Positions 8,418-55,188 of a DNA stretch of 64,000 nt are shown in pieces; the stretch's first letter is position 1; every line of letters begins with the position of its first letter. The stretch lies in NCBI GenBank assembly GCA_029834535.1, contig JAQMWT010000311.1, forward strand, positions 62,001 to 126,000, read 5' to 3'. The stretch comes from Chrysophaeum taylorii (lineage: Eukaryota > Sar > Pelagophyceae > Pelagomonadales > Pelagomonadaceae). Position numbers and translations under genes: made by a program. The notes under the pieces are model-generated. The model was not told the origin of the DNA, did not search any database, and was given only the letters and a program-made list of their open reading frames with translations.

Positions 8418-8483
8418 TTTCAGATCCAGAGATCTGTAATCGGAACGGTGCGGTCCTACGCGAAGCGGGACACGCGTAACAGT

Positions 8484-15495: not shown

Positions 15496-15717
15496 CTTGC
15501 CGATCTAGCATATCTTGCTGGATCACCCATTGGAATCTATCGATTCTTGTTGTTTCCTTGAAATTACCCTCAATTAAATGTTCGACAGCATGGCGTGAGT
15601 GGAGTGTGAGCGCTTGGTTGGACGTGTGGTGGAACCACCCGTGGTTCAGGACCGTTGAGCGGTCACGTTGTGACCGACGGTTAGGCGAAGAGGGGCGGGT
15701 GAGCTGAGTTTCCACCA
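15496..15717 (+). repeat. Truncated 5' LTR of Ty3-B-L
   Basis: Matches the last 222 bp of the 351-bp 3' LTR (22063-22413), from CTTGCCGATC to TTTCCACCA. The cut point is also the outer end of the inverted-repeat homology. Confidence 0.85.
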
Positions 15718-16195
15718 CAGGTGGTCTCAGAAACGGGAACTGATAGTTTCCGGGGTTGTTGTTACGCGAATCCCGGACTGTCAGTCTCCCGCGCCCGGCG
15801 GCGAATCGGTGTTCAGGCTTTGGGCGAGTGCAGAGCCGACGTGTTTGTGAGTGCGGTTCCGGCGAATCGAGGGTGTCACTCCGATACGCAAAGCGGAACA
15901 AGCGTTCGGCGTGTTCGAACGTGAGCGGACGTTGTCGTGAGTCTCGAAAAAAAAAAACAATCGCCTGGGGAGCGGGGAGTAAGCCATCGCTCCCAGAACG
16001 GCAGACCGGGGAGGACAACCATATCCTCAAGACAACCCCCAAAAAAAAAAAGAGTTCGCCTGGGGGAGACAGCCATCTCCCAGAACAGGTAGGCCGGGGA
16101 GGACGACCATATCCTCTAGTCAACCGGCTCAAGCGCGCAGTCAAGCAGTAGCCGGCAAATTGCTGCTTTGACGACAAAAAAAAAAACAAAATTAG
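15718..16195 (+). promoter_or_regulatory. Ty3-B leader: putative primer site, stem-loop array and A-tracts
   Basis: CAGGTGGTCTCAGAAACGG directly follows the LTR, with TGG as a possible primer-binding-site start. Downstream are four short stem-loops: 15969-15993 (GGAGCG/CGCTCC), 16011-16028 (GAGGA/TCCTC), 16064-16081 (GGGAGA/TCTCCC) and 16099-16116 (GAGGA/TCCTC). Each has CCAT at or in the loop. They form two similar pairs separated by runs of exactly 11 A at 15947, 16041 and 16176, the last just before the gag ATG at 16196. The layout suggests an RNA packaging, dimerisation or translation signal; that role is inferred. Confidence 0.55.
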
Positions 16196-17383
16196 ATGAC
16201 GGCCCCGTGGTTTCGGGACGCCCAGGAACGTCTGCGGCGAGTCATCACCCCAGTGATGGAGTCATCCCTCCGAAGACGGCTAGATGTCGGGACGGGTGGC
16301 GAACGAGTGGAGATACCAGTGGAGAGTGCGGCGGATACGGCTGTCCGGCCAGAAGTGCGCACTCCAGAAAGTGAAGAGGTAGGGGCCATGACAGCCCCAG
16401 AACCTATGCCTGCAACGGTAGTCGGGGGCGAGCCAACGCCTATGCCCGTGCACGTACGAGAAGACGAGACGATCCGTACGGAACGACTACGGTCCGACCC
16501 AGGAACTCCAGCTGCAATCCGGGAGCCGGTGACTCGAGCACCGCCGGCCCCACCTTACTCTGCGATTGCTGGAGAAGAAAAGATAGAGGGAGATCCCACG
16601 CTTATGCGCACCCTCCTCGAAAAAGTTGAAGAATATCGCTCAAAGATCCACTATCTCGAAGGGACGATGGAATACGAGCGAGAAGAGTCTCAACGCCAAT
16701 ACCGAGACGCTGAGCTTCAGCGTCGAACAGTTCAGCATGAACGAGCCGAGAATGAACGGCTTCGACGAGAAATCGAAGACACGAGACGAGCTCGAGAAGA
16801 ATATCCACCATCTCTCAATACTACCCTCGTCGAACAACATCGTCGAGAGGCCGAGTTTCAGCGGCACGAGGCCGAGAAGCTGCGGCGTGAGCTTAAAGAG
16901 GCCACACGAGTCCGAAACAAGCGACCACCATCACCTGACGTTGATCGCGCCAGACCGGAACTAGCGGACGACGCCGCGGCGACTCGTGCAGACGACCCCC
17001 CGCCTCGAAAGCATCCCGAACCAATACGGCGGAGGCCCTCTGCACCTGACTTCGATCCTTCTGGCGACGATGATGAGTTCGATGATACCATCAGCATCGA
17101 TAGAGGTCCGACGGGGATGCACAGGTTGAACTTCCCGACACTCCAGGGCCCTATTGTCAAGACGCGTGACGAAGTACGGACGTGGTGGAACCAACTGATG
17201 CGGATCATCGAGCTAAGGCTCGACCGTCCTTCATGCGCCATGAACATGATCGGTGGCGAATATCAACTCGCTCCCATGACTGTTTATAACAAGTGGGAAG
17301 ACGAGCACAAGCCGCTATGGAAAGGGTATTTACGCGGACGTGTTTCGAAGGCGGAATCCGTAAGCACGACGAGGAGTACTTGA
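16196..17383 (+). CDS. Ty3-B-L Gag, N-terminal part
   Basis: The ATG at 16196 follows the third A-tract and is shared with Ty3-B-R. Residues 1-125 are Pro/Glu-rich. About 135-245 is a strong coiled coil (VEEYRSKIHYLEGTMEYERE, QHERAENERLRREIED). From about 300 it is capsid-like (RTWWNQLMRIIELRLDRP, WKGYLRGRVSKAE). The frame is lost at about 17346 where one A is missing relative to the right copy. Confidence 0.85.
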   Translation: MTAPWFRDAQERLRRVITPVMESSLRRRLDVGTGGERVEIPVESAADTAVRPEVRTPESEEVGAMTAPEPMPATVVGGEPTPMPVHVREDETIRTERLRSDPGTPAAIREPVTRAPPAPPYSAIAGEEKIEGDPTLMRTLLEKVEEYRSKIHYLEGTMEYEREESQRQYRDAELQRRTVQHERAENERLRREIEDTRRAREEYPPSLNTTLVEQHRREAEFQRHEAEKLRRELKEATRVRNKRPPSPDVDRARPELADDAAATRADDPPPRKHPEPIRRRPSAPDFDPSGDDDEFDDTISIDRGPTGMHRLNFPTLQGPIVKTRDEVRTWWNQLMRIIELRLDRPSCAMNMIGGEYQLAPMTVYNKWEDEHKPLWKGYLRGRVSKAESVSTTRST

Positions 17384-19551
17384 CCAAAATCGAGGAAGCA
17401 CTCCTATTGCCCTGCCCTCCTCGAGCTACTACAGAGCAACTGGAGTATGAGTGGTACACGATGACGCAAGGCAACCTTCCGCTCTCCAAGTACGTCAGCA
17501 AGTGGGTCCAAAAATTTGGACTATGGCGAGCTGCTTCTAAGAACCCGGTGGAACCCGAAGCTTTTCGGATGCACTTTCTCCGAGGGTTATCGTCTGAAAA
17601 GCTCCGACACGACATTCACCTTGCGCGGATCTCGGCCCCGGACCAAACGCTAGACCAGACGTTCCAACTTGCCTTGCAATTGGACGCGATGCCAGAGGTG
17701 GGGACGTCCAGCGACAAGCATGAAGGTCCAAAAAAGACCGAAGTCCCAAAAGACAAGCCCCACCGTACGCGTAAGGAATGCCATCCTTATGTGCTGGAGC
17801 TTGTCTGTGACGCGCCACTGATGAGAGGTCAGGCCTACCGCCCTTATCGCTCGCTCTACCCTGATTTGCGTGTGATACCAAACTCTTTGTCGTCATATTG
17901 CTTCCACGAGCCGAACGAAGTTTACGTGGCTGTGGAGCATGTTGGCACAGGACCTATTGGACTCGACCCTGAGGTACCCATGATCGAGGGAGAGATCATA
18001 CCACATGAAGGTTGCGTCAAAGTACAGCTGGAAGCCGCTGAAGAGGATACAAGAGTCTGTTTTGCGACTGCTTCAGCTGACGAAGATGAGACGGAAGTCG
18101 AGGAGGTCTTAGCTGTGAGACCCCCTCCTGAACCTCCTCCAGAAGAAGGAACAAAAAAAATGTCGAAGGAAGAAGCCACGACTCAGGAGCTGATTGCTAG
18201 GCATGCTTCTTTGGTTTGGATTCCAATCACCTATATCAGCGTCGTCGTTTATTTCGCCGGCGCTGGTGGATCGAGTTTGGGGATCCAACGATGCAATACT
18301 GTTCCCACCACCACCCCACCACCACCGTTGGTTGTATCGCCTGGGACGGCTCAATCTTTTTCAGGGGGCACCGTCGCCACTGCTGTGATGCAGAGCAACC
18401 AAGTCTCTACGACCGCTGAAGAGGAGGGCGCATTGAAGGAGCGACCAGCGTATTTCAAGACGTACGCAGTTCCGTGGGCGGACGCGCCTAACGACGAACA
18501 TGGTTATCCTGTACCAGTGGTGCCTCCTCATTTAGCTGATCAAGAGAGCATGCAAGTCATCCCTCCGACCGTCGCGCAGGTCGAAGAGGTGATGGCCGCG
18601 CTGGGCATTACAGACCATCCCGCTTTAAATGAGGATGAAAAACGGATGATGCGACATTTGCTTTCCTACTCGTGGGCATTCTTTGATGACGTGATGAGAC
18701 CCGTTGATTCGCCTGAGGTCACCCTCCGGTTCAAAGAGGACAATCCGAGCCCGATTAAGTTGTCGCCGTATCGGTTGTCAAAGGAGAAGATCGAGTGCTT
18801 GAGACTTCAAATCGAGGAATGGAGTCGAGACGGAGTTGTCCGTCCCGCGCACTCTCCTTGGGGTTTTCCTATCCTGATGCTGCCTAAGAAAGGGGCTGAG
18901 TCGGGCACTTCCAACGCTTACAGAGCGGCTGTCGACCTGCGGCGCCTCAACAAATTGCTCAAGGATGACAGTTGGCCGAGCGTGAGCATGACCGACGCGT
19001 TGATGTTTCTCACCGACAAGTTCCGTCGTTCTAGCATGGACATCCGATGGGGTTACCACAATTTGCGATTGTCAGCGGACGCGCAGGATGTAGTGACCTT
19101 CACTAGTCCTTTGGGAGCATTCAGCTATATGCGTTTACCTTTGGGAGTCAAGCCTGCTGGCAGCCTGTTCTGCAAGCAACTCAACACCGATCTGTCGAAG
19201 TGGTTGTACCGTGACCTAGTGGCTTATATCGACGACATTTTGGTTGGGCATGCAGACACTAAGAGTCATTTGCAATGCCTTGTTCAAGTCATTCCCCACT
19301 TGGCGTCGAAAGGGTATAGCGGCAAGGTTAAGAAGATCCACTTCATGAAGGAGGTCATTGAATTCTTGGGGCATTTGTCTACCCCGAATGGACTTCTCCC
19401 GTCACCAAGATCGACGGAGGCCATCCGGCATATGCCAATCCCTGGTACTTTGTCAGATGCTGATCCCAAAAGCAAGTCCGCTCCTTCCTTGGGATGGGGA
19501 GTTTTTGTCGTCGTTATGTGCGCAATTTCGCGCGAGTCGCGGAGCCGTTAA
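17293..19551 (+). pseudogene. Ty3-B-L Gag C-terminus fused to reverse transcriptase by two in-frame deletions
   Basis: The capsid C-terminus (YEWYTMTQGNLPLSKYV, MHFLRGLSSEKL) runs to HRTRKE and jumps to the region after the protease-like domain (HPYVLELVCDAP). It then reaches methyltransferase motif I (VVYFAGAGGSSLGIQRC) and jumps again to the Pro-rich linker TTTPPPPLVV before reverse transcriptase. RT blocks are intact: AAVDLRRLNK, DIRWGYHNL, VAYIDDIL, EFLGHLST. The frame ends at about 19471 through one lost A. So a Gag-RT fusion remains without protease or methyltransferase. Confidence 0.88.
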
Positions 19552-21761
19552 GACAGTTGACTTTGCCAGATGTTAAGTTCGAGTGGACGAAAGAGTGTCA
19601 AGAGGCCTGGGATGCCATCATCGAAGCTATTGTTACTTCTAAGGGCATTTACCATCCGGACTACTCATTGCCGTTCTACATTCGGACAGATGCATCTGCG
19701 CATGGATTAGGCGCTTACTTGTTTCAGAAAGTGCCAGTCGTTGGTGACGATGGAAAAGAACGGGTGGAGGAGAGAGTTATTGAGTACTGGAGTCGAACCG
19801 TGCCTAAGTCGATGAGGAAGTATGATCCTCGGCGCTTGGAACTCCTCGCAGTACTCTCTGCTCTCGAAAATTTCCGATTTTATATCGAAGGTCATCAGAC
19901 AAAGTTAGAGACGGATCATCGTAACTTAACGTTTCTGCGGGATTCGAATCATACGTCTGGACAGTTAGCACGATGGGCTATGCGGCTTGCTGCGTTCGAC
20001 CGGGAGCTCGGATACAAACCTGGAAGCTCCCCGGGCATGCGCATCCCTGATTGCCTGTCGCGCAATCCAATCGACAAGTTAATCGAGCAGGACGAAGACG
20101 GAGAACCGATCAATGAAGCGTATCTGATCTTCCAGGAGATCCCCACCGATGTTCCGGGCACAGCGTGCTTCACCTTCTCATCAGTGACGATGTCTCTGTT
20201 GGCAGACAGGGAGTATACTGCAGCTCTAGCAGCAGTTAGTACGCGTCGGAGCGCGCCGCCGCCTCAATTTGCGTACGAAGCCGATCCGGTAGACCCCGTT
20301 GAACGGCTCCCTTTTGCTGATCAAGCTGAGGATGAGATCACTCTCGAGGAGATAGCTAAAGAACAGATTGAAGACAAGACTTGCACGCAGATCCGTCAGA
20401 GCCTCGATTCGGAGCAGAAGGATCCACGCGATAAGCCACCCCTGCCGTACGAGATCGAAGACAACGTCTTGTACAAGGTTGACGAGTCAGAATCTCGACG
20501 TCTGATTGTGGTCCCACAGTCGATGCAGGAGCGTGTGATCACCATGCACCATCGAGGGCTGTTCGGAGGCCATGTGGGACGAGATTCGACAGCGAGCCAG
20601 ATTTTGGAGCGATACTGGTGGCCCAACGTCATATCGTCGGTCACCGACTTCATCAAGGCCTGCATCATCTGTCAGAAAGTTCGATCCACGGTGCCGAAGC
20701 GCTATGGCCTCCTTTGCCAACCGAATCGCATTGGTGATTGCTATGTCCTAGGAATGGATCTCTTTGGACCACTGAGAGGAGCCGACTTGCACACGTATAT
20801 CCTCGCGATGTACGATGCTGCGTCGCATTTTCTCAAGCTGGCGTTGATAAATACCAAGCATGACTACGCGATCTTGAATGCATTTGTTGACAAGATTGTC
20901 CTCGAGGGATGTCTCCCGCGGTGTATAGTTACGGATAATGGTAGTGAGTTCGCGAACAAGTTGTTCCGGACGTTCGTTCGTCAATTCAACGTTCGATACC
21001 GCACGACCATTCTTTATCACCCACAGAGTAATCACACTGAGCGAGTCAATCGGTTCATCAAGGCCTTCCTCCGGGCCGCGATGGATGAGCAGCGCCAAAC
21101 GGACTGGTCTATTTTTGTCCAGTACGTGGCTTTCATGTACAACCGGATGTATATCCCCGGAACGAAGATCTCGCCGTTTATGATGCGTACCGGCAAGCAA
21201 CCCCTGTTACCGCCTGATTACAACATCTTGGGCGAACAGCGTGGTCTGCCTCAATCGCGTCAACAGATCCTGACGGACTTTAAGCACAAGTTTGAATTTT
21301 ACAGTCAACTCGTCGCTCGGGCACATCAAAAGGCCCAGGAGACTCAGAAGATCAACTACGACGCCCATCAGATCGACATCCAGTTCTCTCCTGGCGATTA
21401 TGTCTTGCGTTTTGTGCCTAAGACGCGTCACAAGTTGCGGCCTATTTGGCGTGGCCCATATATTGTTACCAAGAAGAAGTCTCCAGTCGTTTACGAAATT
21501 AAAGACGTGCACGACGACAATGCCGAACCCGTTGTGGTATCCGTGCAGCAGATTGTGCCTTTGAAAGTGCCGATAATCGACACCTCTTCGGCCCCCTGCA
21601 CACGCCTTCAGACCGCGACCGCTTTAAGCACGGCAAATTTGTCATTTTTCGGGTCAAAGCACGAGGTAATGCGTGGAAGAAACGTATCTATGTTGCCGAG
21701 GTCTATGAAGACTATGATCACGACAATGATACTGTGGCATTACACTATTATACTGATCTAG
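19494..21761 (+). CDS. Ty3-B-L RNase H and integrase
   Basis: Continues Pol after the frameshift: RT connection (RRYVRNFARVAEPLRQ), RNase H (RTDASAHGLGAY, ETDHRNLTFL), zinc-binding HHCC (HHRGLFGGHVGRDST, ACIICQKV), and the integrase core with Asp in GMDLFGPL, Asp in VTDNGSEF and Glu in HTERVNRF. The post-core segment WRGPYIVTKKKSP follows. It then shifts frame at about 21594 where one C is missing from a run. All catalytic integrase residues remain. Confidence 0.88.
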   Translation: MGSFCRRYVRNFARVAEPLRQLTLPDVKFEWTKECQEAWDAIIEAIVTSKGIYHPDYSLPFYIRTDASAHGLGAYLFQKVPVVGDDGKERVEERVIEYWSRTVPKSMRKYDPRRLELLAVLSALENFRFYIEGHQTKLETDHRNLTFLRDSNHTSGQLARWAMRLAAFDRELGYKPGSSPGMRIPDCLSRNPIDKLIEQDEDGEPINEAYLIFQEIPTDVPGTACFTFSSVTMSLLADREYTAALAAVSTRRSAPPPQFAYEADPVDPVERLPFADQAEDEITLEEIAKEQIEDKTCTQIRQSLDSEQKDPRDKPPLPYEIEDNVLYKVDESESRRLIVVPQSMQERVITMHHRGLFGGHVGRDSTASQILERYWWPNVISSVTDFIKACIICQKVRSTVPKRYGLLCQPNRIGDCYVLGMDLFGPLRGADLHTYILAMYDAASHFLKLALINTKHDYAILNAFVDKIVLEGCLPRCIVTDNGSEFANKLFRTFVRQFNVRYRTTILYHPQSNHTERVNRFIKAFLRAAMDEQRQTDWSIFVQYVAFMYNRMYIPGTKISPFMMRTGKQPLLPPDYNILGEQRGLPQSRQQILTDFKHKFEFYSQLVARAHQKAQETQKINYDAHQIDIQFSPGDYVLRFVPKTRHKLRPIWRGPYIVTKKKSPVVYEIKDVHDDNAEPVVVSVQQIVPLKVPIIDTSSAPCTRLQTATALSTANLSFFGSKHEVMRGRNVSMLPRSMKTMITTMILWHYTIILI

Positions 21762-22027
21762 GTTCACGCGATGACCCCCGTGTTTTCGACCCTACCAAGC
21801 CTCTAACTGAGCGACAGCTCAGACCAGAATACAAAGATCGTGACGGATGCAGTTTCACTCGTTTTCGAGCGAACATGGATGGCTGTGAGCCTTGTGTCAA
21901 CGATTTCCACCCTGACGAGATCGATACCCTTGTCACTAACTTCAGCCTCCACAGCAACAAAGTCCCTACGGACATCGCTGAACGCGCTTATCGTCTCATT
22001 CGTGAGCGCGACCTTCGTCACCCTTGA
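21734..22027 (+). CDS. Ty3-B-L Pol C-terminal domain (frameshifted off)
   Basis: Holds YTDLGSRDDPRVFDP, RQLRPEYKDRDG and the natural Pol end at RERDLRHP-TGA. The frame is that of the right copy's Pol C-terminus. It is separated here only by the single-base loss at about 21594. Confidence 0.75.
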   Translation: MALHYYTDLGSRDDPRVFDPTKPLTERQLRPEYKDRDGCSFTRFRANMDGCEPCVNDFHPDEIDTLVTNFSLHSNKVPTDIAERAYRLIRERDLRHP

Positions 22028-22062
22028 AGTCGAGGACGACTTCACCTTAAGTAGGGGGCTCC

Positions 22063-22413
22063 TGTGGCGGTAATAACCATCCCCCACTTATGTGCCTGTT
22101 ACCTGCCTGTTACCTTGAATTTGGCGGTGTCATGCTTGACACCCACACCTGCTTCTCCAAGGATACTCCTGTACCGAGAACCTGTGTTGCTCTTGCCGAT
22201 CTAGCATATCTTGCTGGATCACCCATTGGAATCTATCGATTCTTGTTGTTTCCTTGAAATTACCCTCAATTAAATGTTCGACAGCATGGCGTGAGCGGAG
22301 TGTGAGCGCTTGGTTGGACGTGTGGTGGAACCACCCGTGGTTCAGGACCGTTGAGCGGTCACGTTGTGACCGACGGTTAGGCGAAGAGGGGCGGGTGAGC
22401 TGAGTTTCCACCA
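22063..22413 (+). repeat. 3' LTR of Ty3-B-L
   Basis: 351 bp, from TGTGGCGGTAATAACC to TTTCCACCA. Preceded by AAGTAGGGGG, a likely polypurine tract. Nearly identical to the LTRs at 45353-45708 and 54825-55181. Confidence 0.9.
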
Positions 22414-22896
22414 TAGCGTCAGCGAGATCGTTAGATCCGTGCAGGACGGATTCCCACGTGTAGAAGCCCTGTAGGAAGTACTGAGTTATACCTGTTTCAG
22501 GCATCAGATGTTCGACGAACAATTGCATGACGCGAAACGAAAGCATTTGGAGTGTGACTTGGGCGTTGTCCATCGACTTGAGGACGGCGCTAGGGGGGGT
22601 CACTAAAGGTGCTAACCTTAGACTTGGGATCTTGTTGAGCCGGAGTGGGAGGCGGAGCCGCAGCAGCGACGGCAGGTGGTGGTGCTTGCGTTGCTTGCAC
22701 TTGGGTGGACAAAGCGCTTATTTGTGCCATCAAGCGAGCTTCGTTGTCTAACATCTCTTGTCTATGCCGAGCTTCGTACGCTTGAGCTTGCTGTTGCATG
22801 TCTCTTTGGTACTTGGCTTCTATACGAGCTTCTTGCTCTCTTAAAACGAGCTTCTTGCTCTCTTATCTCCTTCTGGAGTTCTTGGTTCGTCGGCAT
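22414..22896 (-). pseudogene. Gag-like fragment of element X, left arm, cut by Ty3-B
   Basis: Mirror copy of 44871-45352. From ATG 22896 it encodes a Glu/Gln/Arg coiled coil, an Ala/Pro stretch (APPPAVAAAAPPPTP) and, after a frame change at a run of seven C, a helical segment (LKSMDNAQVTLQMLSFRVM). Here one extra T near 22840 adds a second frameshift. Ty3-B interrupts it at the same base as in the right arm. Confidence 0.65.
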
Positions 22897-43919: not shown

Positions 43920-43984
43920 AGGCCAGTAAGTTGACGTCCCAGTAAGTTCACCTGGTCCTAGTAAATCCACCTGGTCCTCGTAAG
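43920..43984. repeat. Short tandem array, about two AGTAAGTTCACCTGGTCCT units
   Basis: Inverted counterpart of 23776-23880 with fewer units. Confidence 0.75.
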
Positions 43985-43989
43985 GGCGG

Positions 43990-44530: not shown

Positions 44531-44539
44531 CTGCTAAGA

Positions 44540-44870
44540 GGGGTGTGTGTGTGTGTGGGGGGCATGAAGGACGTGGGTGGTTTTGTGGGGTAGGAGTAGA
44601 GATAGAAAATCTGACCGAGGGTTAGTACCCCCTGTTCTAGGGTTAGTTCACTTAACTTTGCCACCTTTGATTTAAGAAAACGCTGTGTTATTCACACCGG
44701 CTGTCCTCGATTAAGAGACAGATTCGAGGACAGACTACCACTGTTCTCACACTCTGCTGAAGGGTAACACAGTTGTGATTACTGTTCTGTAGGTTATGGG
44801 CCCAGTCCCGGTATCAGCAGAGTCCCAGGATTTCCAGACAAGTCAAGTGCACTGACGTTCCTGAACCAAA
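44540..44870 (+). other. Element X probable LTR, tRNA-iMet primer site and leader, right arm
   Basis: GGTTATGGGCCCAGTCC at about 44793-44809 is a half-tRNA initiator-Met primer site. About 200 bp before it, beginning after a GT microsatellite (44544-44558), is probably the LTR; its start is not determined. The leader to the ATG at 44871 is about 60 nt. Confidence 0.6.
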
Positions 44871-45352
44871 ATGCCGACGAACCAGGAACTCCAGAAGGAG
44901 ATAAGAGAGCAAGAAGCTCGTTTAAGAGAGCAAGAAGCTCGTATAGAAGCCAAGTACCAAAGAGACATGCAACAGCAAGCTCAAGCGTACGAAGCTCGGC
45001 ATAGACAAGAGATGTTAGACAACGAAGCTCGCTTGATGGCACAAATAAGCGCTTTGTCCACCCAAGTGCAAGCAACGCAAGCACCACCACCTGCCGTCGC
45101 TGCTGCGGCTCCGCCTCCCACTCCGGCTCAACAAGATCCCAAGTCTAAGGTTAACACCTTTAGTGACCCCCCCTAGCGCCGTCCTCAAGTCGATGGACAA
45201 CGCCCAAGTCACACTCCAAATGCTTTCGTTTCGCGTCATGCAATTGTTCGTCGAACATCTGATGCCTGAAACAGGTATAACTCAGTACTTCCTACAGGGC
45301 TTCTACACGTGGGAATCCGTCCTGCGCGGATCTAACGATCTCGCTGACGCTA
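44871..45352 (+). pseudogene. Gag-like fragment of element X, right arm, cut by Ty3-B-R
   Basis: ATG 44871 opens a coiled-coil head (QELQKEIREQEARLREQEAR) with a repeated REQEAR unit and an Ala/Pro stretch. A run of seven C at 45168 ends the frame at TAG, and the next frame continues with PSAVLKSMDNAQVTLQM. It is interrupted at 45352 by the Ty3-B 3' LTR. The coil then helical capsid-like order fits Gag. The element family (copia or gypsy) is unknown. Confidence 0.65.
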
Positions 45353-45708
45353 TGGTGGAAACTCAGCTCACCCGCCCCTCTTCGCCTAACCGTCGGTCAC
45401 AACGTGACCGCTCAACGGTCCTGAACCACGGGTGGTTCCACCACACGTCCAACCAAGCGCTCACACTCCGCTCACGCCATGCTGTCGAACATTTAATTGA
45501 GGGTAATTTCAAGGAAACAACAAGAATCGATAGATTCCAATGGGTGATCCAGCAAGATATGCTAGATCGGCAAGAGCAACACAGGTTCTCGGTACAGGAG
45601 TATCCTTGGAGAAGCAGGTGTGGGTGTCAAGCATGACACCGCCAAATTCAAGGTAACAGGCAGGTAACAGGCACATAAGTGGGGGGGGGAATGGTTATTA
45701 CCGCCACA
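45353..45708 (-). repeat. 3' LTR of Ty3-B-R
   Basis: About 356 bp. Element-strand ends TGTGGCGG and TTTCCACCA. A G-run of variable length (about 9 here) lies inside. Confidence 0.9.
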
Positions 45709-45743
45709 GGAGCCCCCTACTTAAGGTGAAGTCGTCCTCGACT

Positions 45744-48700
45744 TCAAGGGTGACGAAGGTCGCGCTCACGAATGAGACGATAAGCGCGTTCAGCGATGTC
45801 CGTAGGGACTTTGTTGCTGTGGAGGCTGAAGTTAGTGACAAGGGTATCGATCTCGTCAGGGTGGAAATCGTTGACACAAGGCTCACAGCCATCCATGTTC
45901 GCTCGAAAACGAGTGAAACTGCATCCGTCACGATCTTTGTATTCTGGTCTGAGCTGTCGCTCAGTTAGAGGCTTGGTAGGGTCGAAAACACGGGGGTCAT
46001 CGCGTGAACCTAGATCAGTATAATAGTGTAATGCCACAGTATCATTGTCGTGATCATAGTCTTCATAGACCTCGGCAACATAGATACGTTTCTTCCACGC
46101 ATTACCTCGTGCTTTGACCCGAAAAATGACAAATTTGCCGTGCTTAAAGCGGTCGCGGTCTGAAGGCGTGTGCAGGGGGGCCGAAGAGGTGTCGATTATC
46201 GGCACTTTCAAAGGCACAATCTGCTGCACGGATACCACAACGGGTTCGGCATTGTCGTCGTGCACGTCTTTAATTTCGTAAACGACTGGAGACTTCTTCT
46301 TGGTAACAATATATGGGCCACGCCAAATAGGCCGCAACTTGTGACGCGTCTTAGGCACAAAACGCAAGACATAATCGCCAGGAGAGAACTGGATGTCGAT
46401 CTGATGGGCGTCGTAGTTGATCTTCTGAGTCTCCTGGGCCTTTTGATGTGCCCGAGCGACGAGTTGACTGTAAAATTCAAACTTGTGCTTAAAGTCCGTC
46501 AGGATCTGTTGACGCGATTGAGGCAGACCACGCTGTTCGCCCAAGATGTTGTAATCAGGCGGTAACAGGGGTTGCTTGCCGGTACGCATCATAAACGGCG
46601 AGATCTTCGTTCCGGGGATATACATCCGGTTGTACATGAAAGCCACGTACTGGACAAAAATAGACCAGTCCGTTTGGCGCTGCTCATCCATCGCGGCCCG
46701 GAGGAAGGCCTTGATGAACCGATTGACTCGCTCAGTATGATTACTCTGTGGGTGATAAGGAATGGTCGTGCGGTATCGAACGTTGAATTGACGAACGAAC
46801 GTCCGGAACAACTTGTTCGCGAACTCACTACCATTATCCGTAACTATACACCGCGGGAGACATCCCTCGAGGACAATCTTGTCAACAAATGCATTCAAGA
46901 TCGCGTAGTCATGCTTGGTATTTATCAACGCCAGCTTGAGAAAATGCGACGCAGCATCGTACATCGCGAGGATATACGTGTGCAAGTCGGCTCCTCTCAG
47001 TGGTCCAAAGAGATCCATTCCTAGGACATAGCAATCACCAATGCGATTCGGTTGGCAAAGGAGGCCATAGCGCTTCGGCACAGTGGATCGAACTTTCTGA
47101 CAGATGATGCAGGCCTTGATGAAGTCGGTGACCGACGATATGACGTTGGGCCACCAGTATCGCTCCAAAATCTGGCTCGCTGTCGAATCTCGTCCCACAT
47201 GGCCTCCGAACAGCCCTCGATGGTGCATGGTGATCACACGCTCCTGCATCGACTGTGGGACCACAATCAGACGTCGAGATTCTGACTCGTCAACCTTGTA
47301 CAAGACGTTGTCTTCGATCTCGTACGGCAGGGGTGGCTTATCGCGTGGATCCTTCTGCTCCGAATCGAGGCTCTGACGGATCTGCGTGCAAGTCTTGTCT
47401 TCAATCTGTTCTTTAGCTATCTCCTCGAGAGTGATCTCATCCTCAGCTTGATCAGCAAAAGGGAGCCGTTCAACGGGGTCTACCGGTTCGGCTTCGTACG
47501 CAAATTGAGGCGGCGGCGCGCTCCGACGCGTACTAACTGCTGCTAGAGCTGCAGTATACTCCCTGTCTGCCAACAGAGACATCGTCACTGATGAGAAGGT
47601 GAAGCACGCTGTGCCCGGAACATCGGTGGGGATCTCCTGGAAGATCAGATACGCTTCATTGATCGGTTCTCCGTCTTCGTCCTGCTCGATTAACTTGTCG
47701 ATTGGATTGCGCGACAGGCAATCAGGGATGCGCATGCCCGGGGAGCTTCCAGGTTTGTATCCGAGCTCCCGGTCGAACGCAGCAAGCCGCATAGCCCATC
47801 GTGCTAACTGTCCAGACGTATGATTCGAATCCCGCAGAAACGTTAAGTTACGATGATCCGTCTCTAACTTTGTCTGATGACCTTCGATATAAAATCGGAA
47901 ATTTTCGAGAGCAGAGAGTACTGCGAGGAGTTCCAAGCGCCGAGGATCATACTTCCTCATCGACTTAGGCACGGTTCGACTCCAGTACTCAATAACTCTC
48001 TCCTCCACCCGTTCTTTTCCATCGTCACCAACGACTGGCACTTTCTGAAACAAGTAAGCGCCTAATCCATGCGCAGATGCATCTGTCCGAATGTAGAACG
48101 GCAATGAGTAGTCCGGATGGTAAATGCCCTTAGAAGTAACAATAGCTTCGATGATGGCATCCCAGGCCTCTTGACACTCTTTCGTCCACTCGAACTTAAC
48201 ATCTGGCAAAGTCAACTGTCTTAACGGCTCCGCGACTCGCGCGAAATTGCGCACATAACGACGACAAAAACTCCCCATCCCAAGGAAGGAGCGGACTTGC
48301 TTTTTGGGATCAGCATCTGACAAAGTACCAGGGATTGGCATATGCCGGATGGCCTCCGTCGATCTTGGTGACGGGAGAAGTCCATTCGGGGTAGACAAAT
48401 GCCCCAAGAATTCAATGACCTCCTTCATGAAGTGGATCTTCTTAACCTTGCCGCTATACCCTTTCGACGCCAAGTGGGGAATGACTTGAACAAGGCATTG
48501 CAAATGACTCTTAGTGTCTGCATGCCCAGCCAAAATGTCGTCGATATAAGCCACTAGGTCACGGTACAACCACTTCGACAGATCGGTGTTGAGTTGCTTG
48601 CAGAACAGGCTGCCAGCAGGCTTGACTCCCAAAGGTAAACGCATATAGCTGAATGCTCCCAAAGGACTAGTGAAGGTCACTACATCCTGCGCGTCCGCTG

Positions 48701-50288
48701 ACAATCGCAAATTGTGGTAACCCCATCGGATGTCCATGCTAGAACGACGGAACTTGTCGGTGAGAAACATCAACGCGTCGGTCATGCTCACGCTCGGCCA
48801 ACTGTCATCCTTGAGCAATTTGTTGAGGCGCCGCAGGTCGACAGCCGCTCTGTAAGCGTTGGAAGTGCCTGGCTCAGCCCCTTTCTTAGGCAGCATCAGG
48901 ATAGGAAAACCCCAAGGAGAGTGCGCGGGACGGACAACTCCGTCTCGACTCCATTCCTCGATTTGAAGTCTCAAGCACTCGATCTTCTCCTTTGACAACC
49001 GATACGGCGACAACTTAATCGGGCTCGGATTGTCCTCTTTGAACCGGAGGGTGACCTCAGGCGAATCAACGGGTCTCATCACGTCATCAAAGAATGCCCA
49101 CGAGTAGGAAAGCAAATGTCGCATCATCCGTTTTTCATCCTCATTTAAAGCGGGATGGTCTGTAATGCCCAGCGCAGCCATCACCTCTTCGACCTGCGCG
49201 ACGGTCGGAGGGATGACTTGCATGCTCTCTTGATCAGCTAAATGAGGAGGCACCACTGGTACAGGATAACCATGTTCGTCGTTAGGCGCGTCCGCCCACG
49301 GAACTGCGTACGTCTTGAAATACGCTGGTCGCTCCTTCAATGCGCCCTCCTCTTCAGCGGTCGTAGAGACTTGGTTGCTCTGCATCACAGCAGTGGCGAC
49401 GGTGCCCCCTGAAAAAGATTGAGCCGTCCCAGGCGATACAACCAACGGTGGTGGTGGGGTGGCGGTGGGAACAGCGGTGACGTTTGAAGTTTGGCTGGAG
49501 TAGAGGTCGTCTTGATGGATCCATGACACACATCGGGTGTCAGGGTCGAGCGTGGGAATACGCGAGTCGATAGCAAAAGATGAAAACCGTAGAAGACGGT
49601 AATCGGGATTGGCCATCGTCGCGGTAGTGATATTCCGTAGTTGACCCTGATTGCGAATCACATGATCAAATGAATTATGCACTGCGAGTGCGATGCGCAT
49701 CATAGTCGCAGGAGGTACCATGCTCCCCAGCATCTTCATAGCCGCTGATTGCGAAATGCTACCCCATTTCCACGTCGTGGGGACGGTCATGATCTCCTGA
49801 TGCATTTCCACGGACAGTGGTCGCACATTGGAAAAGTGAGGGCCCATCTGCAACTTATTGCGCGTCACCGTGAAAGTGGGGCCGATGGCTGGTCGCGTAG
49901 ATGAAAAACTGTTCACCACAATCAGAGGGTGACCACTCGGAAAGCCTAACGCTGGCCCGAAACGGTCCTGCAAATTGGGTGGCACTCGCGTCAGTAGTGG
50001 CAATGACAAGCGCACATTGCTGCCAAGTAGGCGCGTGCGCGAACACAGCAATTCCGGGGTGATACTGTAAAAGTCAACCACACGCGGAATGTAGAACTTG
50101 TGATGGATAAAGGAATCACGGATGGCTCCTGCTCCAACGTCCATCGTCCAATCACGTGAGGTGCATTGCGGAAATGACGCAGAACCCACGAGGTGATGGC
50201 AGCACCCTTGCGCGCGTCCCTGTAGTGCAGGTTCGCGGTCGAGCCATAAATACAAGGAGGACTGGCGTGGAAGTACGAATGTCTCCAA
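45744..50288 (-). CDS. Ty3-B-R methyltransferase C-half and Pol
   Basis: A 1514-residue open frame. After about 45 out-of-frame residues it enters the methyltransferase: motif VIII region (SITPELLCSRTRLLGSN, about 75-90), motif IX (RPLSVEMHQEIMTVP, about 155) and motif X (KMLGSMVPPAT, about 190). A Pro-rich linker follows. Then RT (AAVDLRRLNK; catalytic VAYIDDIL about 581), RNase H (RTDASAHGLG about 733), integrase HHCC (about 1024-1065), D,D,E (GMDLFGPL, VTDNGSEF, HTERVNRF) and the barrel-like C-terminus (RIYVAEVYEDYD). It ends at TGA 45744. All polymerase and integrase catalytic residues are present. Confidence 0.92.
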   Translation of the reverse strand: METFVLPRQSSLYLWLDREPALQGRAQGCCHHLVGSASFPQCTSRDWTMDVGAGAIRDSFIHHKFYIPRVVDFYSITPELLCSRTRLLGSNVRLSLPLLTRVPPNLQDRFGPALGFPSGHPLIVVNSFSSTRPAIGPTFTVTRNKLQMGPHFSNVRPLSVEMHQEIMTVPTTWKWGSISQSAAMKMLGSMVPPATMMRIALAVHNSFDHVIRNQGQLRNITTATMANPDYRLLRFSSFAIDSRIPTLDPDTRCVSWIHQDDLYSSQTSNVTAVPTATPPPPLVVSPGTAQSFSGGTVATAVMQSNQVSTTAEEEGALKERPAYFKTYAVPWADAPNDEHGYPVPVVPPHLADQESMQVIPPTVAQVEEVMAALGITDHPALNEDEKRMMRHLLSYSWAFFDDVMRPVDSPEVTLRFKEDNPSPIKLSPYRLSKEKIECLRLQIEEWSRDGVVRPAHSPWGFPILMLPKKGAEPGTSNAYRAAVDLRRLNKLLKDDSWPSVSMTDALMFLTDKFRRSSMDIRWGYHNLRLSADAQDVVTFTSPLGAFSYMRLPLGVKPAGSLFCKQLNTDLSKWLYRDLVAYIDDILAGHADTKSHLQCLVQVIPHLASKGYSGKVKKIHFMKEVIEFLGHLSTPNGLLPSPRSTEAIRHMPIPGTLSDADPKKQVRSFLGMGSFCRRYVRNFARVAEPLRQLTLPDVKFEWTKECQEAWDAIIEAIVTSKGIYHPDYSLPFYIRTDASAHGLGAYLFQKVPVVGDDGKERVEERVIEYWSRTVPKSMRKYDPRRLELLAVLSALENFRFYIEGHQTKLETDHRNLTFLRDSNHTSGQLARWAMRLAAFDRELGYKPGSSPGMRIPDCLSRNPIDKLIEQDEDGEPINEAYLIFQEIPTDVPGTACFTFSSVTMSLLADREYTAALAAVSTRRSAPPPQFAYEAEPVDPVERLPFADQAEDEITLEEIAKEQIEDKTCTQIRQSLDSEQKDPRDKPPLPYEIEDNVLYKVDESESRRLIVVPQSMQERVITMHHRGLFGGHVGRDSTASQILERYWWPNVISSVTDFIKACIICQKVRSTVPKRYGLLCQPNRIGDCYVLGMDLFGPLRGADLHTYILAMYDAASHFLKLALINTKHDYAILNAFVDKIVLEGCLPRCIVTDNGSEFANKLFRTFVRQFNVRYRTTIPYHPQSNHTERVNRFIKAFLRAAMDEQRQTDWSIFVQYVAFMYNRMYIPGTKISPFMMRTGKQPLLPPDYNILGEQRGLPQSRQQILTDFKHKFEFYSQLVARAHQKAQETQKINYDAHQIDIQFSPGDYVLRFVPKTRHKLRPIWRGPYIVTKKKSPVVYEIKDVHDDNAEPVVVSVQQIVPLKVPIIDTSSAPLHTPSDRDRFKHGKFVIFRVKARGNAWKKRIYVAEVYEDYDHDNDTVALHYYTDLGSRDDPRVFDPTKPLTERQLRPEYKDRDGCSFTRFRANMDGCEPCVNDFHPDEIDTLVTNFSLHSNKVPTDIAERAYRLIRERDLRHP

Positions 50289-50593
50289 TGATCCTTATGT
50301 AGGTATGACAAGACCACATCGTACGTACGACGATGAGATTTCCCCAGGTCATGAAGCACGTACGGGATCTTAGGAAAGTTGAGCTGGAAAACAGCTCGCG
50401 CTTGTGGACATGAGTCCAAAGCCAACACAATGCGAAAAGAGGTTCCATAGATCTCATTGCATCGTTGGATCCCCAAACTCGATCCACCAGCGCCGGCGAA
50501 ATAAACGACGACGCTGATATAGGTGATTGGAATCCAAACCAAAGAAGCATGCCTAGCAATCAGCTCCTGAGTCGTGGCTTCTTCCTTCGACAT
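49991..50593 (-). CDS. Ty3-B-R C5-methyltransferase N-half
   Basis: 200 residues from ATG 50593. Motif I VVYFAGAGGSSLGIQRC (about 25-40), acidic motif II region ALDSCPQA, motif IV HASPPCIYG with catalytic Cys near 50260, motif VI TLEQEP with Glu near 50130. The frame then leaves register in a T-run near 50115, and the rest of the domain continues in the Pol frame. Together the two halves cover motifs I, IV, VI, VIII, IX and X, the full C5-MTase set. Closest relative here is the Ty3-A domain. Target (DNA or RNA) and activity are unknown. Confidence 0.85.
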   Translation of the reverse strand: MSKEEATTQELIARHASLVWIPITYISVVVYFAGAGGSSLGIQRCNEIYGTSFRIVLALDSCPQARAVFQLNFPKIPYVLHDLGKSHRRTYDVVLSYLHKDHWRHSYFHASPPCIYGSTANLHYRDARKGAAITSWVLRHFRNAPHVIGRWTLEQEPSVIPLSITSSTFRVWLTFTVSPRNCCVRARAYLAAMCACHCHY

Positions 50594-53500
50594 TTTTTTG
50601 TTCCTTCTTCTGGAGGAGGTTCAGGAGGGGGTCTCACAGCTAAGACCTCCTCCTCGACTTCCGTCTCATCTTCGTCAGCTGAAGCAGTCGCAAAACAGAC
50701 TCTTGTATCCTCTTCAGCGGCTTCCAGCTGTACTTTGACGCAACCTTCATGTGGTATGATCTCTCCCTCGATCATGGGTACCTCAGGGTCGAGTCCAATA
50801 GGTCCTGTGCCAACATGCTCCACAGCCACGTAAACTTCGTTCGGCTCGTGGAAGCAATATGACGACAAAGAGTTTGGTATCACACGCAAATCAGGGTAGA
50901 GCGAGCGATAAGGGCGGTAGGCCTGACCTCTCATCAGTGGCGCGTCACAGACAAGCTCCAGCACATAAGGATGGCCGGGTGCGAGATAGTGGGTCTTAGT
51001 CACAAACGCGAAGTGAGGGACGACGGTGGGATCCTCACGGGAAACCTGACTTTGTCCGCCCGTACCCGCAGAAATCTCACAACCATGCGCGTCTAGCGGA
51101 GGATGCTCTGGGTCAGTGCGATGGTGCTCGGCTCTAGCCTGGATGGACCGAAGCAAGCTATCATACCGCCAAGGAGTAGCAAATGGCTGCCACTGCTTCT
51201 GGTTCCCGTCGTGTATGGCGAGCTTCGCCGTCGGGAACATAGGAACCACTGTTGGAGTCGCATCGAACGCTTCGTTGAAGAGGACAACGCCCTGGTGGTC
51301 CTGAAGCGCATCGGGATCTCTACTTTTCAGAACTCCAATGGTAACTTCAGAGCGACGGAAAATGGCCAACTCGGAAGCGTAATCCATGATAGAACCCAAA
51401 AGTCGTAATTCTCGCGCTCCTAGTAGTAGCTGCCCATTCGTCTGCCCCACGAAAAACATCAGCAGAGTGGAAGTTCCAGGCGTCATAGAAACGCGCAAGA
51501 TAATCCATTCGCGAATAGCCGCTCCCGAACCACCTGATCCGCTAAGAGTGCGAGTAGAGGGCAGCGCCTGGCGATAAATGATCTTATTTTCACGTCTGAG
51601 CTTGTTGTAGAGCACGTGATCGATGTATGGCGAGTCAGCCATACCATCCAGCCCAGCTGCAAGGACCGAATAAGATGCACCATCCTGAGACACAACGGCG
51701 ACAGGGATATACGTCAAACATGTCAACTTCGTCCCGTCGTATGTCACTGCTTTGTTCTCACGATGATCGGGATGACTAGCTGTATTCATCGCTGTCTGCG
51801 GGCAGAACTCATCGAAATCAGAGCTAATGCTCGGGCATGCAGCGGAGCCAGTGGCAAGATCGTCTGATGACGGCTCCACAGCGATGGCCATCAATTGGTC
51901 TCGACCAGTAAACCAGCTTGGGTCCTCGTCTTTCGACATCTCCCCTCCGTCTTGACTGGAGATGATAGACGCGACTTTGCGCACCTCAGCACTCCGACTC
52001 TCTTCTGCCGTCCATGCGTCCTCGGTGATCACCAAAAAGGAGGGCGGTTCCATGGGTTCATCACAAAAGGAGTGCTCTTCTGGTGTTACATCACCACGGC
52101 TCTCATCCTCGTCGTCTCCGCTGATCACATTGCCGTCAATCAGCGCCGCATTCTGCACCGTGCATCCATTGAATCGCCTAGGGCCGCCCTGATCTTCATC
52201 AAGCACATCGAGCCACTGGGAGGCGGCGCCGGCACTGCACTGGCTGGGGTTGGCCTGCTGCTGTGTCGACTGGGTAGCTTGGCGTAGCAACGACAGGGTG
52301 TTTAGTGCCTGCGCAACGTCCTCCGATCTCAGCGTGCGCGATGCACTCTGCTGCTGCACCACTGGTTGCTGAACCATCTGCTGCGGAGCGGCTGCGATTA
52401 CCTGTTGGGGACCTGCACCTGTGCCCTGCGCAGCAGTGTAGACGACCTGTGGGGGTGGCGTAAATGGTGCTTGAACGCGCCGCGTCACGGCAGCTTGATT
52501 AGCCGTGACCGTTTGTCGACATTGGGCCTGTCCTTCTGCCGTCGGTGGGAAGCCTGCAGCCTTCAACGTTCGGGCAGCGCGAGCTTTCCGATCAGAATTT
52601 CCAGACTTAGGACACACTCCACCATCGTGCCCGTAATAAATATGCTTCCCACATTTCAAGCACGTCATCAACGCATAGTGTAACTCAGAGTCGAGGTTCT
52701 CCGGCAGCCGACCTGACGCGTCAGAGCTGGTGACATAACCTGCTAGCTGCTGCTGCTGATACCATTCCTTACGCGTACGGTGGGGCTTGTCTTTTGGGAC
52801 TTTGGTCTTTTTTGGATCTTCATGCTTGTCGCTGGACGTCCCCACCTCTGGCATCGCGTCCAATTGCAAGGCAAGTTGGAACGTCTGGTCTAGCGTTTGG
52901 TCCGGGGCCGAGATCCGCGCAAGGTGAATGTCGTGTCGGAGCTTTTCAGACGATAACCCTCGGAGAAAGTGCATCCGAAAAGCTTCGGGTTCCACCGGGT
53001 TCTTAGAAGCAGCTCGCCATAGTCCAAATTTTTGGACCCACTTGCTGACGTACTTGGAGAGCGGAAGGTTGCCTTGCGTCATCGTGTACCACTCGTACTC
53101 CAGTTGCTCTGTAGTAGCTCGAGGAGGGCAGGGCAATAGGAGTGCTTCCTCGATTTTGGCCAAGTACTCCTCGTCGTGCTTACGGATTTCCGCCTTCGAA
53201 ACACGTCCGCGTAAATACCCTTTCCATAGTGGCTTGTGCTCGTCTTCCCACTTGTTATAAACAGTCATGGGAGCGAGTTGATATTCGCCACCGATCATGT
53301 TCATGGCGCATGAAGGACGGTCGAGCCTTAGCTCGATGATCCGCATCAGTTGGTTCCACCACGTCCGTACTTCGTCACGCGTCTTGACAATAGGGCCCTG
53401 GAGTGTCGGGAAGTTCAACCTGTGCATCCCCGTCGGACCTCTATCGATGCTGATGGTATCATCGAACTCATCATCGTCGCCAGAAGGATCGAAGTCAGGT

Positions 53501-53940
53501 GCAGAGGGCCTCCGCCGTATTGGTTCGGGATGCTTTCGAGGCGGGGGGTCGTCTGCACGAGTCGCCGCGGCGTCGTCCGCTAGTTCCGGTCTGGCGCGAT
53601 CAACGTCAGGTGATGGTGGTCGCTTGTTTCGGACTCGTGTGGCCTCTTTAAGCTCACGCCGCAGCTTCTCGGCCTCGTGCCGCTGAAACTCGGCCTCTCG
53701 ACGATGTTGCTCGACGAGGGTAGCATCGAGAGATGGTGGATATTCTTCTCGAGCTCGTCTCGTGTCTTCGATTTCTCGTCGAAGCCGTTCATTCTCGGCT
53801 CGTTCATGCTGAACTGTTCGACGCTGAAGCTCAGCGTCTCGGTATTGGCGTTGAGACTCTTCTCGCTCGTATTCCATCGTCCCTTCGAGATAGTGGATCT
53901 TAGAGCGATATTCTTCAACTTTTTCGAGGAGGGTGCGCAT
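50560..53940 (-). CDS. Ty3-B-R Gag and protease-like region
   Basis: 1126-residue frame. Coiled coil 1-105, capsid-like 140-390 (TWWNQLMRIIELRL, FRMHFLRGLSSEKL), zinc-knuckle-like CLKCGKHIYYGHDGGVC near 425 (CX2CX7HX4C, wider than the usual CX2CX4HX4C), and Gln-rich 480-570. A protease-like region lies near 763, where AGLDGMADSPYI stands in place of DTGA, with LLLGARELRLLG about 90 residues later. It ends just after the slippery A-run at the methyltransferase start. Confidence 0.85.
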   Translation of the reverse strand: MRTLLEKVEEYRSKIHYLEGTMEYEREESQRQYRDAELQRRTVQHERAENERLRREIEDTRRAREEYPPSLDATLVEQHRREAEFQRHEAEKLRRELKEATRVRNKRPPSPDVDRARPELADDAAATRADDPPPRKHPEPIRRRPSAPDFDPSGDDDEFDDTISIDRGPTGMHRLNFPTLQGPIVKTRDEVRTWWNQLMRIIELRLDRPSCAMNMIGGEYQLAPMTVYNKWEDEHKPLWKGYLRGRVSKAEIRKHDEEYLAKIEEALLLPCPPRATTEQLEYEWYTMTQGNLPLSKYVSKWVQKFGLWRAASKNPVEPEAFRMHFLRGLSSEKLRHDIHLARISAPDQTLDQTFQLALQLDAMPEVGTSSDKHEDPKKTKVPKDKPHRTRKEWYQQQQLAGYVTSSDASGRLPENLDSELHYALMTCLKCGKHIYYGHDGGVCPKSGNSDRKARAARTLKAAGFPPTAEGQAQCRQTVTANQAAVTRRVQAPFTPPPQVVYTAAQGTGAGPQQVIAAAPQQMVQQPVVQQQSASRTLRSEDVAQALNTLSLLRQATQSTQQQANPSQCSAGAASQWLDVLDEDQGGPRRFNGCTVQNAALIDGNVISGDDEDESRGDVTPEEHSFCDEPMEPPSFLVITEDAWTAEESRSAEVRKVASIISSQDGGEMSKDEDPSWFTGRDQLMAIAVEPSSDDLATGSAACPSISSDFDEFCPQTAMNTASHPDHRENKAVTYDGTKLTCLTYIPVAVVSQDGASYSVLAAGLDGMADSPYIDHVLYNKLRRENKIIYRQALPSTRTLSGSGGSGAAIREWIILRVSMTPGTSTLLMFFVGQTNGQLLLGARELRLLGSIMDYASELAIFRRSEVTIGVLKSRDPDALQDHQGVVLFNEAFDATPTVVPMFPTAKLAIHDGNQKQWQPFATPWRYDSLLRSIQARAEHHRTDPEHPPLDAHGCEISAGTGGQSQVSREDPTVVPHFAFVTKTHYLAPGHPYVLELVCDAPLMRGQAYRPYRSLYPDLRVIPNSLSSYCFHEPNEVYVAVEHVGTGPIGLDPEVPMIEGEIIPHEGCVKVQLEAAEEDTRVCFATASADEDETEVEEEVLAVRPPPEPPPEEGTKKCRRKKPRLRS

Positions 53941-54347
53941 AAGCGCGGGATCCCCTCTATCTTTTCTTCTCCAGCAATCGCAGAGTAAGGTGGGGCCGGC
54001 GGTGCTCGAGTCACCGGCTCCCGGATTGCAGCTGGAGTTCCTGGGTCGGACCGTAGTCGTTCCGTACGGATCGTCTCGTCTTCTCGTACGTGCACGGGCA
54101 TAGGCGTTGGCTCGCCCCCGACTACCGTTGCAGGCATAGGTTCTGGGGCTGTCATGGCCCCCACCTCTTCACTTTCTGGAGTGCGCACTTCTGGCCGGAC
54201 AGCCGTATCCGCCGCACTCTCCACTGGTATCTCCACTCGTTCGCCACCCGTCCCGACATCTAGCCGTCTTCGGAGGGATGACTCCATCACTGGGGTGATG
54301 ACTCGCCGCAGGCGTGCCTGGGCGTCCCGAAACCACGGGGCCGTCAT
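53580..54347 (-). CDS. Ty3-B-R Gag N-terminus
   Basis: ATG 54347 matches the Gag start of the left copy (MTAPWFRDAQ). The true frame is kept to about residue 132 (EEKIEG). There one base fewer than in the left copy shifts it; the authentic continuation is the 53940-50560 frame. The residues beyond are out-of-frame. Confidence 0.8.
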   Translation of the reverse strand: MTAPWFRDAQARLRRVITPVMESSLRRRLDVGTGGERVEIPVESAADTAVRPEVRTPESEEVGAMTAPEPMPATVVGGEPTPMPVHVREDETIRTERLRSDPGTPAAIREPVTRAPPAPPYSAIAGEEKIEGIPRLCAPSSKKLKNIALRSTISKGRWNTSEKSLNANTETLSFSVEQFSMNEPRMNGFDEKSKTRDELEKNIHHLSMLPSSSNIVERPSFSGTRPRSCGVSLKRPHESETSDHHHLTLIAPDRN

Positions 54348-54824
54348 CTAATTTTTTTTTTTTTTGTCGTCAAAGCAGCAATTTGCCGGCTACTGCTTGA
54401 CTGCGCGCTTGAGCCGGTTGGCTAGAGGATATGGTCGTCCTCCCCGGCCTACCTGTTCTGGGAGATGGCTGTCTCCCCCAGGCGAACTTTTTTTTTTTTT
54501 CGGTTGTCTTGAGGATATGGTTGTCCTCCCCGGTCTGCCGTTCTGGGAGCGATGGCTTACTCCCCGCTCCCCAGGCGATTGTTTTTTTTTTTTTTCGAGA
54601 CTCACGACAACGTCCGCTCACGTTCGAACACGCCGAACGCTTGTTCCGCTTTGCGTATCGGAGTGACACCCTCGATTCGCCGGAACCGCACCCACAAACA
54701 CGTCGGCTCTGCACTCGCCCAAAGCCTGAACACCGATTCGCCGCCGGGCGCGGGAGACTGACAGTCCGGGATTCGCGTAACAACAACCCCGGAAACTATC
54801 AGTTCCCGTTTCTGAGACCACCTG
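54348..54824 (-). promoter_or_regulatory. Ty3-B-R leader: stem-loops and three 14-nt A-tracts
   Basis: Same paired stem-loop arrangement as 15718-16195. Here each of the three homopolymers is 14 long (54352, 54488, 54582) instead of 11. The CAGGTGGTCTC primer-site candidate lies next to the LTR. Confidence 0.55.
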
Positions 54825-55181
54825 TGGTGGAAACTCAGCTCACCCGCCCCTCTTCGCCTAACCGTCGGTCACAACGTGACCGCTCAACTGTCCTGAACCA
54901 CGGGTGGTTCCACCACACGTCCAACCAAGCGCTCACACTCCGCTCACGCCATGCTGTCGAACATTTAATTGAGGGTAATTTCAAGGAAACAACAAGAATC
55001 GATAGATTCCAATGGGTGATCCAGCAAGATATGCTAGATCGGCAAGAGCAACACAGGTCCTCGGTACAGGAGTATCCTTGGAGAAGCAGGTGTGGGTGTC
55101 AAGCATGACACCGCCAAATTCAAGGTAACAGGCAGGTAACAGGCACATAAGTGGGGGGGGGGGATGGTTATTACCGCCACA
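54825..55181 (-). repeat. 5' LTR of Ty3-B-R
   Basis: About 357 bp, complete. Its outer 135 bp extend beyond the inverted-repeat homology, since the left copy is truncated there. Confidence 0.9.
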
Positions 55182-55188
55182 GGAGCCA

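Follow-up and report, generated by a model that had tools for sequence, protein, structure and literature searches.

The genome of the pelagophyte Chrysophaeum taylorii contains a Ty3/Gypsy retrotransposon, here called Ty3-B, which raises the question of whether such an element can keep a C5-cytosine methyltransferase (MTase) of its own, between its protease-like region and its reverse transcriptase (RT), and what it would use the enzyme for. The element lies in a stretch of 64,000 nucleotides (contig JAQMWT010000311.1, positions 62,001 to 126,000), referred to as the window, and all positions given below are counted from the first letter of this stretch. On the simplest reading of the data described here, a C5-MTase was captured once, long ago, by a Ty3/Gypsy clade whose members come from algae and uncultured organisms. 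We lean towards the reading that this clade keeps the captured enzyme in Pol and methylates its own cDNA with it, and that the host maintains the mark.

The MTase domain of Ty3-B

The initial annotation described six MTase motifs in order, one frameshift apart, and all six are located on the minus strand, in two open reading frames (ORFs). Motifs I (FAGAGG, 50483-50500), IV (SPPC, 50252-50263) and VI (TLEQE, 50126-50140) are in ORF 50620-49991, and motifs VIII (CSRTRLL, 50025-50045), IX (RPLSVEMHQEIM, 49788-49823) and X (GSMVPP, 49710-49727) are in ORF 50294-45744, with the RT motif YIDD (48537-48548, minus strand) downstream of them. When the two halves of the domain are compared with the Pfam profile PF00145, the N-half (50114..50593, minus strand, with FAGAGG, SPPC and EQE) scores 18.9 bits and the C-half (49656..50096, minus strand, in a different frame, with SRTRLL, RPLS... 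and GSMVPP) 16.8 bits, both below the curated cut-off of 22 bits. Five of five intact domains from other genome copies are above this cut-off (37.6, 38.0, 35.2, 26.4 and 25.5 bits). The related protein P0004 also exceeds it, with 23.9 bits, and locus L040, of a sister lineage A, scores 20.9 bits with its longer frame. Searches of the 70.8-Mb assembly, in which 150 candidates were scored for each half, give at least 150 matches to the C-half and at least 151 to the N-half, fragments and lineage A included. Given this number of matches, the motif set is more than chance.

In several near-identical genome copies both MTase halves share one frame (2,129, 2,115 and 1,457 aa). The A lineage has a listed frame of 3,067 aa, of which a 1,333-aa part (L040) runs uninterrupted by stops through the MTase, RT and RNase H, and P0004 is a single protein of 2,439 aa that comprises an MTase, RT, RNase H and integrase. 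Because of these single frames, it is concluded that the MTase and RT are normally parts of one polyprotein. It is damage to the window copy of Ty3-B that has broken the MTase frame, and the window copy of Ty3-A, the sister element, is also damaged. In other copies the MTase frame extends upstream for about 500 residues, whereas in the window copy the gag-pro and MTase frames differ. The 2,129-aa frame (L010) begins near residue 690 of the 1,202-aa gag-pro frame of the window, and so includes the protease-like part, but perhaps not Gag. Programmed frameshifting at the gag-pro/MTase junction was considered and dropped, since the MTase frame continues upstream in these other copies.

The predicted models, one of the full domain (of a relative) and one of a Ty3-A part (9194-8487), have the C5-MTase fold. 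For the full-domain model, DNMT1, M.HaeIII and other DNA MTases are at the top of the fold matches, which also include DNMT3 chains and M.HhaI, and all 50 rows listed are within 2 Z units. For the Ty3-A part, the three best Foldseek hits are DNMT2 chains, and FtsJ-type RNA MTases score equally high on this partial model. When the A2 sequence is compared with PDB sequences, the four best hits are also DNMT2, although weakly (E 0.0075-0.018), whereas the DNMT2 of the host itself reaches E 3.9e-39. Motif order and predicted fold are those of the PF00145 catalytic family (DNMT1, M.HhaI, M.HaeIII, DNMT2), but the Ty3 MTase is only 10-20% identical to the listed solved structures and, unlike these enzymes, sits within a retrotransposon polyprotein. 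The motif set, with SPPC, EQE, R-x-R and motifs IX and X, is presumably unlike that of Dnmt3. The profile matches, the predicted fold and the conserved catalytic residues described below agree with the annotation of a C5-MTase-type domain; a missing PF00145 hit and MTase fold, or the loss of the catalytic cysteine in related copies, would have spoken against it, and neither is seen.

Conservation of the catalytic residues

Conservation was examined in 44 loci of the A and B lineages, being the 30 best-scoring N-half matches and 14 chosen loci rather than a random sample. The motif IV cysteine is present in 43 of the 44, as is SPPC. The glutamate of motif VI is found in 41 (40 EQE and one EQA; one further locus has QQE), and the R-x-R of motif VIII in 40; loci without a motif match may be truncated. 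Both lineages retain the motif I glycines and S-P-P-C, and motifs IX and X are kept in nine aligned A and B domains. The cysteine, EQ and R-x-R also persist, while their neighbours drift, in the five relatives that cover the motifs (P0001, P0003, P0004, P0005 and P0007).

The ratio of nonsynonymous to synonymous substitution rates (dN/dS), calculated by NG86 over 364-365 codons of the MTase, is 0.088-0.135 between groups B1 and B2 (six pairs) and 0.064-0.072 between groups A1 and A2 (four pairs); 20 of the 36 pairs, those of A with B, could not be computed. Within groups it is 0.13-0.26 for five pairs and 0.945 for one young pair. For an RT stretch (309 codons) the value is 0.103. Judged by these values, the MTase domain looks to be kept by selection. 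No APOBEC-type G-to-A strand bias is evident in the pairwise spectrum of the copies.

The MTase across one RT clade

A search of proteins with the A1 profile returned one homologue, P0001, with 7,995 candidates scored, and no homologue of the MTase part of the 1,516-aa window frame was found among 4,966 candidates. The search with the RT-integrase region returned 177 proteins, of which 120 were listed. Scanning 121 proteins with the A1 profile finds the MTase in six: P0001, P0002, P0003, P0004, P0005 and P0007. P0002, from the transcriptome MMETSP1165 of the pelagophyte genus Chrysocystis, matches in its C-terminal part only; P0003 is also an MMETSP transcript. No viral or prokaryotic relatives were confirmed with A1 in viral contigs or genome contigs.

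In a quick IQ-TREE analysis of the RT, with 58 of the 116 usable rows, both window lineages and P0002-P0007 form one clade on a long stem, with a Shimodaira–Hasegawa-like approximate likelihood ratio test (SH-aLRT) value of 100. The MTase is present in seven of the eight rows of this clade, and the remaining row, P0006, begins at the RT. Outside the clade, an MTase match is absent from 49 of 50 rows, and the remaining row, P0084, carries another MTase; these outside rows were not screened for truncation. The simplest reading of this distribution would be a single gain of the MTase on the stem of the clade, followed by inheritance together with the RT.

P0084 and P0112 are metagenomic Ty3 polyproteins in which RVT_1, rve and PF00145 occur together, but the MTase is located, by reading, after RNase H in P0084 and between RT and RNase H in P0112. 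P0084 is distant in the RT tree, P0112 is outside the rows of the tree, and neither matches the A1 profile. These MTases are apparently separate captures.

MTases of a copia family and of the host

Besides two host genes, a PF00145 scan of the genome gives at least 55 matches; the six that were read (L003-L008) all have PCQH and belong to another family. One element of this family, L055 (5298-7232, minus strand), has a PF00145 MTase (38.6 bits, with PCQH and ENV) upstream of RVT_2 (140 bits), together with a very weak rve match (13.4 bits, below cut-off) that is also downstream of the MTase frame. By its domain content this is a Ty1/copia element. A protease-like DGGAS is found, by reading only, upstream of the copia MTase in L006 and L007. 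Three LTR (long terminal repeat) families, Ty3-A, Ty3-B and this copia family, have their own C5-MTase downstream of a protease-like region. When the Ty3 MTase is compared by profile with its copia counterpart, and A2 with the DNMT5-like host gene described below, no significant match results, the alignments being shallow.

Two further observations concern copia-like sequences in the window. The Gag-like frame at 2534-3901 (minus strand) resembles, by reading, the frame preceding the copia MTase in L003. A copia element, whose frame has at least 150 genome matches, shows at 31057-31752 the MTase-like motifs LCSG, TSPC, MEMTP and ARERW; it is not claimed as an MTase, its PF00145 score of 13.1 bits being below the cut-off and two other copies giving no hit.

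Of the two host genes, L001 is DNMT2 (E 3.9e-39 to PDB entry 1g55). L002 matches PDB entry 7r76, named Rad8 by its depositors, over 640 residues with E 3e-143; we take this entry to be the DNMT5 of Cryptococcus, and the host enzyme appears to be DNMT5-like, of the maintenance type. DNMT1 and DNMT3 were not found in two genome searches, in which 123 of 474 and 122 of 327 candidates were scored and exons were searched singly. One SRA match was found in the host genome, which also has 84 matches to the light-harvesting family PF00504, as would suit an alga. In the host protein L059:648-3374 (plus strand), both a 2OG-Fe(II) oxygenase and an SRA domain exceed their cut-offs, and a PHD-like zinc finger narrowly misses its own. 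DNMT5 has been described as maintaining CG methylation while refusing DNA that is unmethylated (PMC13297926), and DNMT5a is reported from pelagophytes, with heavily methylated linkers in Aureococcus (PMC9998398).

What the MTase may do

Proteins of the same Gag-Pol polyprotein as the RT are generally packaged with the RT and the cDNA. Because the Ty3 MTase is in one polyprotein with the RT, retained in Pol after the protease-like region and before the RT, it would be packaged together with the RT and the cDNA and, presumably, released by the protease. It could then methylate cytosines in the double-stranded cDNA of its own element, either before this cDNA integrates or as it does so, and host maintenance (the DNMT5-like gene and an SRA protein) could preserve this mark. 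A new copy would thereby pass for long-established, methylated host DNA rather than for foreign DNA without methylation; in short, the elements may mark their own copies. For elements with a DNMT capable of methylating CG, de Mendoza et al. (PMC5890265) proposed that the cDNA is methylated before it integrates. We infer that this is also the best-supported function here, its weakest steps being that DNA is the substrate and that the element benefits.

Several observations weigh against this proposal. The rate of C/T differences before G, compared with the rates before other bases, is 0.012 versus 0.007-0.027 for B1 (seven copies), 0.057 versus 0.037-0.074 for B2 (22 copies), 0.030 versus 0.010-0.027 for A2 (six copies) and 0.058 versus 0.017-0.060 for A1 (five copies). 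The pairwise excess of CpG transitions is weak at most, with no clear CpG decay, and the window is not depleted of CpG (observed/expected 0.91-1.38). Because there is little CpG decay in the copies, heavy and lasting CG methylation is argued against; weak, transient or RNA-directed methylation also fits. The SymbioLINE DNMT that was tested in yeast showed no methylation of DNA, and RNA was suggested as its substrate (PMC5890265). The five relatives that cover the motifs have lost the proline beside the cysteine (SPSC, SVDC, TPDC); motif I of P0003 is degenerate, and a search of P0005 at E 0.01 gives no PF00145 hit. Some members of the clade may therefore be altered or inactive.

It is possible, although we hold it only tentatively, that the MTase acts on RNA, methylating the genomic RNA of the element or the tRNA primer in the particle, for stability, packaging or the priming of reverse transcription. 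The DNMT2 hits of Ty3-A and of A2, the equal scores of FtsJ-type RNA MTases, the copies without clear CpG decay and the RNA activity suggested for SymbioLINE-Dnmt are in agreement with this. However, the full-domain model places DNA MTases at the top (within the narrow range of Z values noted above), motifs IX and X are kept, and a Rossmann resemblance by itself cannot distinguish substrates. We consider it unlikely that the retrotransposons are the source of the host's new cytosine methylation, with CG methylation written on cDNA and kept by DNMT5/SRA, such that the epigenome is seeded by parasites; the idea follows from the maintenance type of the DNMT5-like enzyme, the searches that found no DNMT1 or DNMT3 and the three LTR families with C5-MTases. 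A little less probable still is a catalytically altered domain, retained as a structural or binding module that would, for example, bind nucleic acid or help to choose the target site. The lost proline beside the nucleophile and the degenerate motif I would suit it, as would EQ in motif VI, where ENV is the usual form, but the cysteine, EQ and R-x-R are among the few invariant residues while their neighbours drift, and the A and B lineages retain the motif I glycines and S-P-P-C. A dead passenger or chance motif set within decaying repeats is highly improbable: the frame-broken window copies, the Ty3-B copy without the MTase and the young pair with a high dN/dS would suit it, but it is largely contradicted by the low dN/dS among diverged copies, the long open frames and the MTase in every member of the RT clade that covers the stretch, and the 3' flank is common to both MTase-less copies.

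Ty3-B, its second copy and Ty3-A in the window

Ty3-B is an element of about 9.8 kb (45350..55187, minus strand). Its LTRs, at 54822..55187 (5' LTR on the element strand) and 45350..45714 (3' LTR, from comparison of the pair), both on the minus strand, are direct repeats that are 98.6% identical, with five differences over 366 columns, and no matching target-site duplication was recognised in their flanks. A 1,202-aa open frame (50560..54168, minus strand) is assigned to Gag and a protease-like region by inspection only, the Pfam scan giving no hit. The RT, RNase H, integrase and a C-terminal tail follow at 45744..49400 (minus strand), where the 1,516-aa frame encodes a Ty3-type RT, RNase H and integrase (matches to RVT_1, RT_RNaseH, RT_RNaseH_2, Integrase_H2C2 and rve). 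The LTR pair and the Pfam order RVT_1, RT_RNaseH, H2C2, rve identify a Ty3/Gypsy element. The tail after the integrase (45744-46400; KFVIFR...VAEVYEDYD...LHYYTDLG) has no Pfam hit in the scan; similar stretches are seen by reading in P0002, P0005 and P0009, and the beginning of one in P0004. It is perhaps a chromatin-reading domain.

A second Ty3-B copy (15496..22416, plus strand), from which the MTase is nearly all deleted, is in inverted duplication with the main copy; the large duplication 15496-28076 / 39728-55046 is 98-99% identical and contains both. The deletion leaves the RT frame open. The same junction is found at C51, with a 3' flank identical to that of the window, and these two MTase-less copies seem to have arisen from one insertion by duplication. 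That MTase-less copies move independently is unsupported, both sites with the junction having this common 3' flank. Two near-identical P-loop frames of 584 aa are found at 24350-26104 (minus strand) and 41696-43450 (plus strand), the former weakly resembling retrotransposon hot spot protein (RHSP), with a score of 13 bits that is below the cut-off.

The MTase domain of Ty3-A is at 8154..9194 (minus strand), with an in-frame stop between its two parts in the window copy. Its motifs, on the same strand, are FSGAGG (9090-9107), SPPC (8859-8870), IEQE (8739-8750), CRVRLL (8637-8654) and SVVPP (8322-8336).

Comparison with known elements and implications

MTases inside retrotransposons, mentioned in the initial annotation, are indeed already known, and include a Gypsy element (PMC5890265); further orphan DNMTs, some within transposons, have also been described (PMC12344493). 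In KnitGypsy-Dnmt3 of Klebsormidium nitens, likewise an LTR element of the Gypsy type, the Pol frame also includes a cytosine MTase that is under purifying selection (Ka/Ks < 0.2), but this MTase groups with Dnmt3 and the repeats have a DIRS-like arrangement (PMC5890265), whereas Ty3-A and Ty3-B have plain terminal direct LTRs. The motif set of Ty3-A/B does not seem to be of the Dnmt3 type, and here the MTase spans an entire RT clade. SymbioDIRS-Dnmt3 and SymbioLINE-Dnmt of Symbiodinium also form many intronless copies with a cytosine MTase, that of SymbioLINE-Dnmt being, as a further likeness, of an orphan class (PMC5890265). These are tyrosine-recombinase elements or LINEs (long interspersed nuclear elements), whereas Ty3-B has LTRs and an integrase with rve and H2C2. 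No report of this MTase-bearing Ty3 clade was found in the open-licence literature searched. What is new here is the clade-wide Ty3 MTase in a host with a DNMT5-like enzyme, and the second MTase in a copia family.

These results suggest that the Pol of LTR retrotransposons can acquire a cytosine MTase as a lasting component shared by a whole clade, beyond local capture, and that Ty3 and copia families of one genome both carry an MTase downstream of the protease-like region. If the enzyme is active, it would allow a direct test of why a transposon would write its usual silencing mark, where the host's own methylation enzyme seems to be of the maintenance type.
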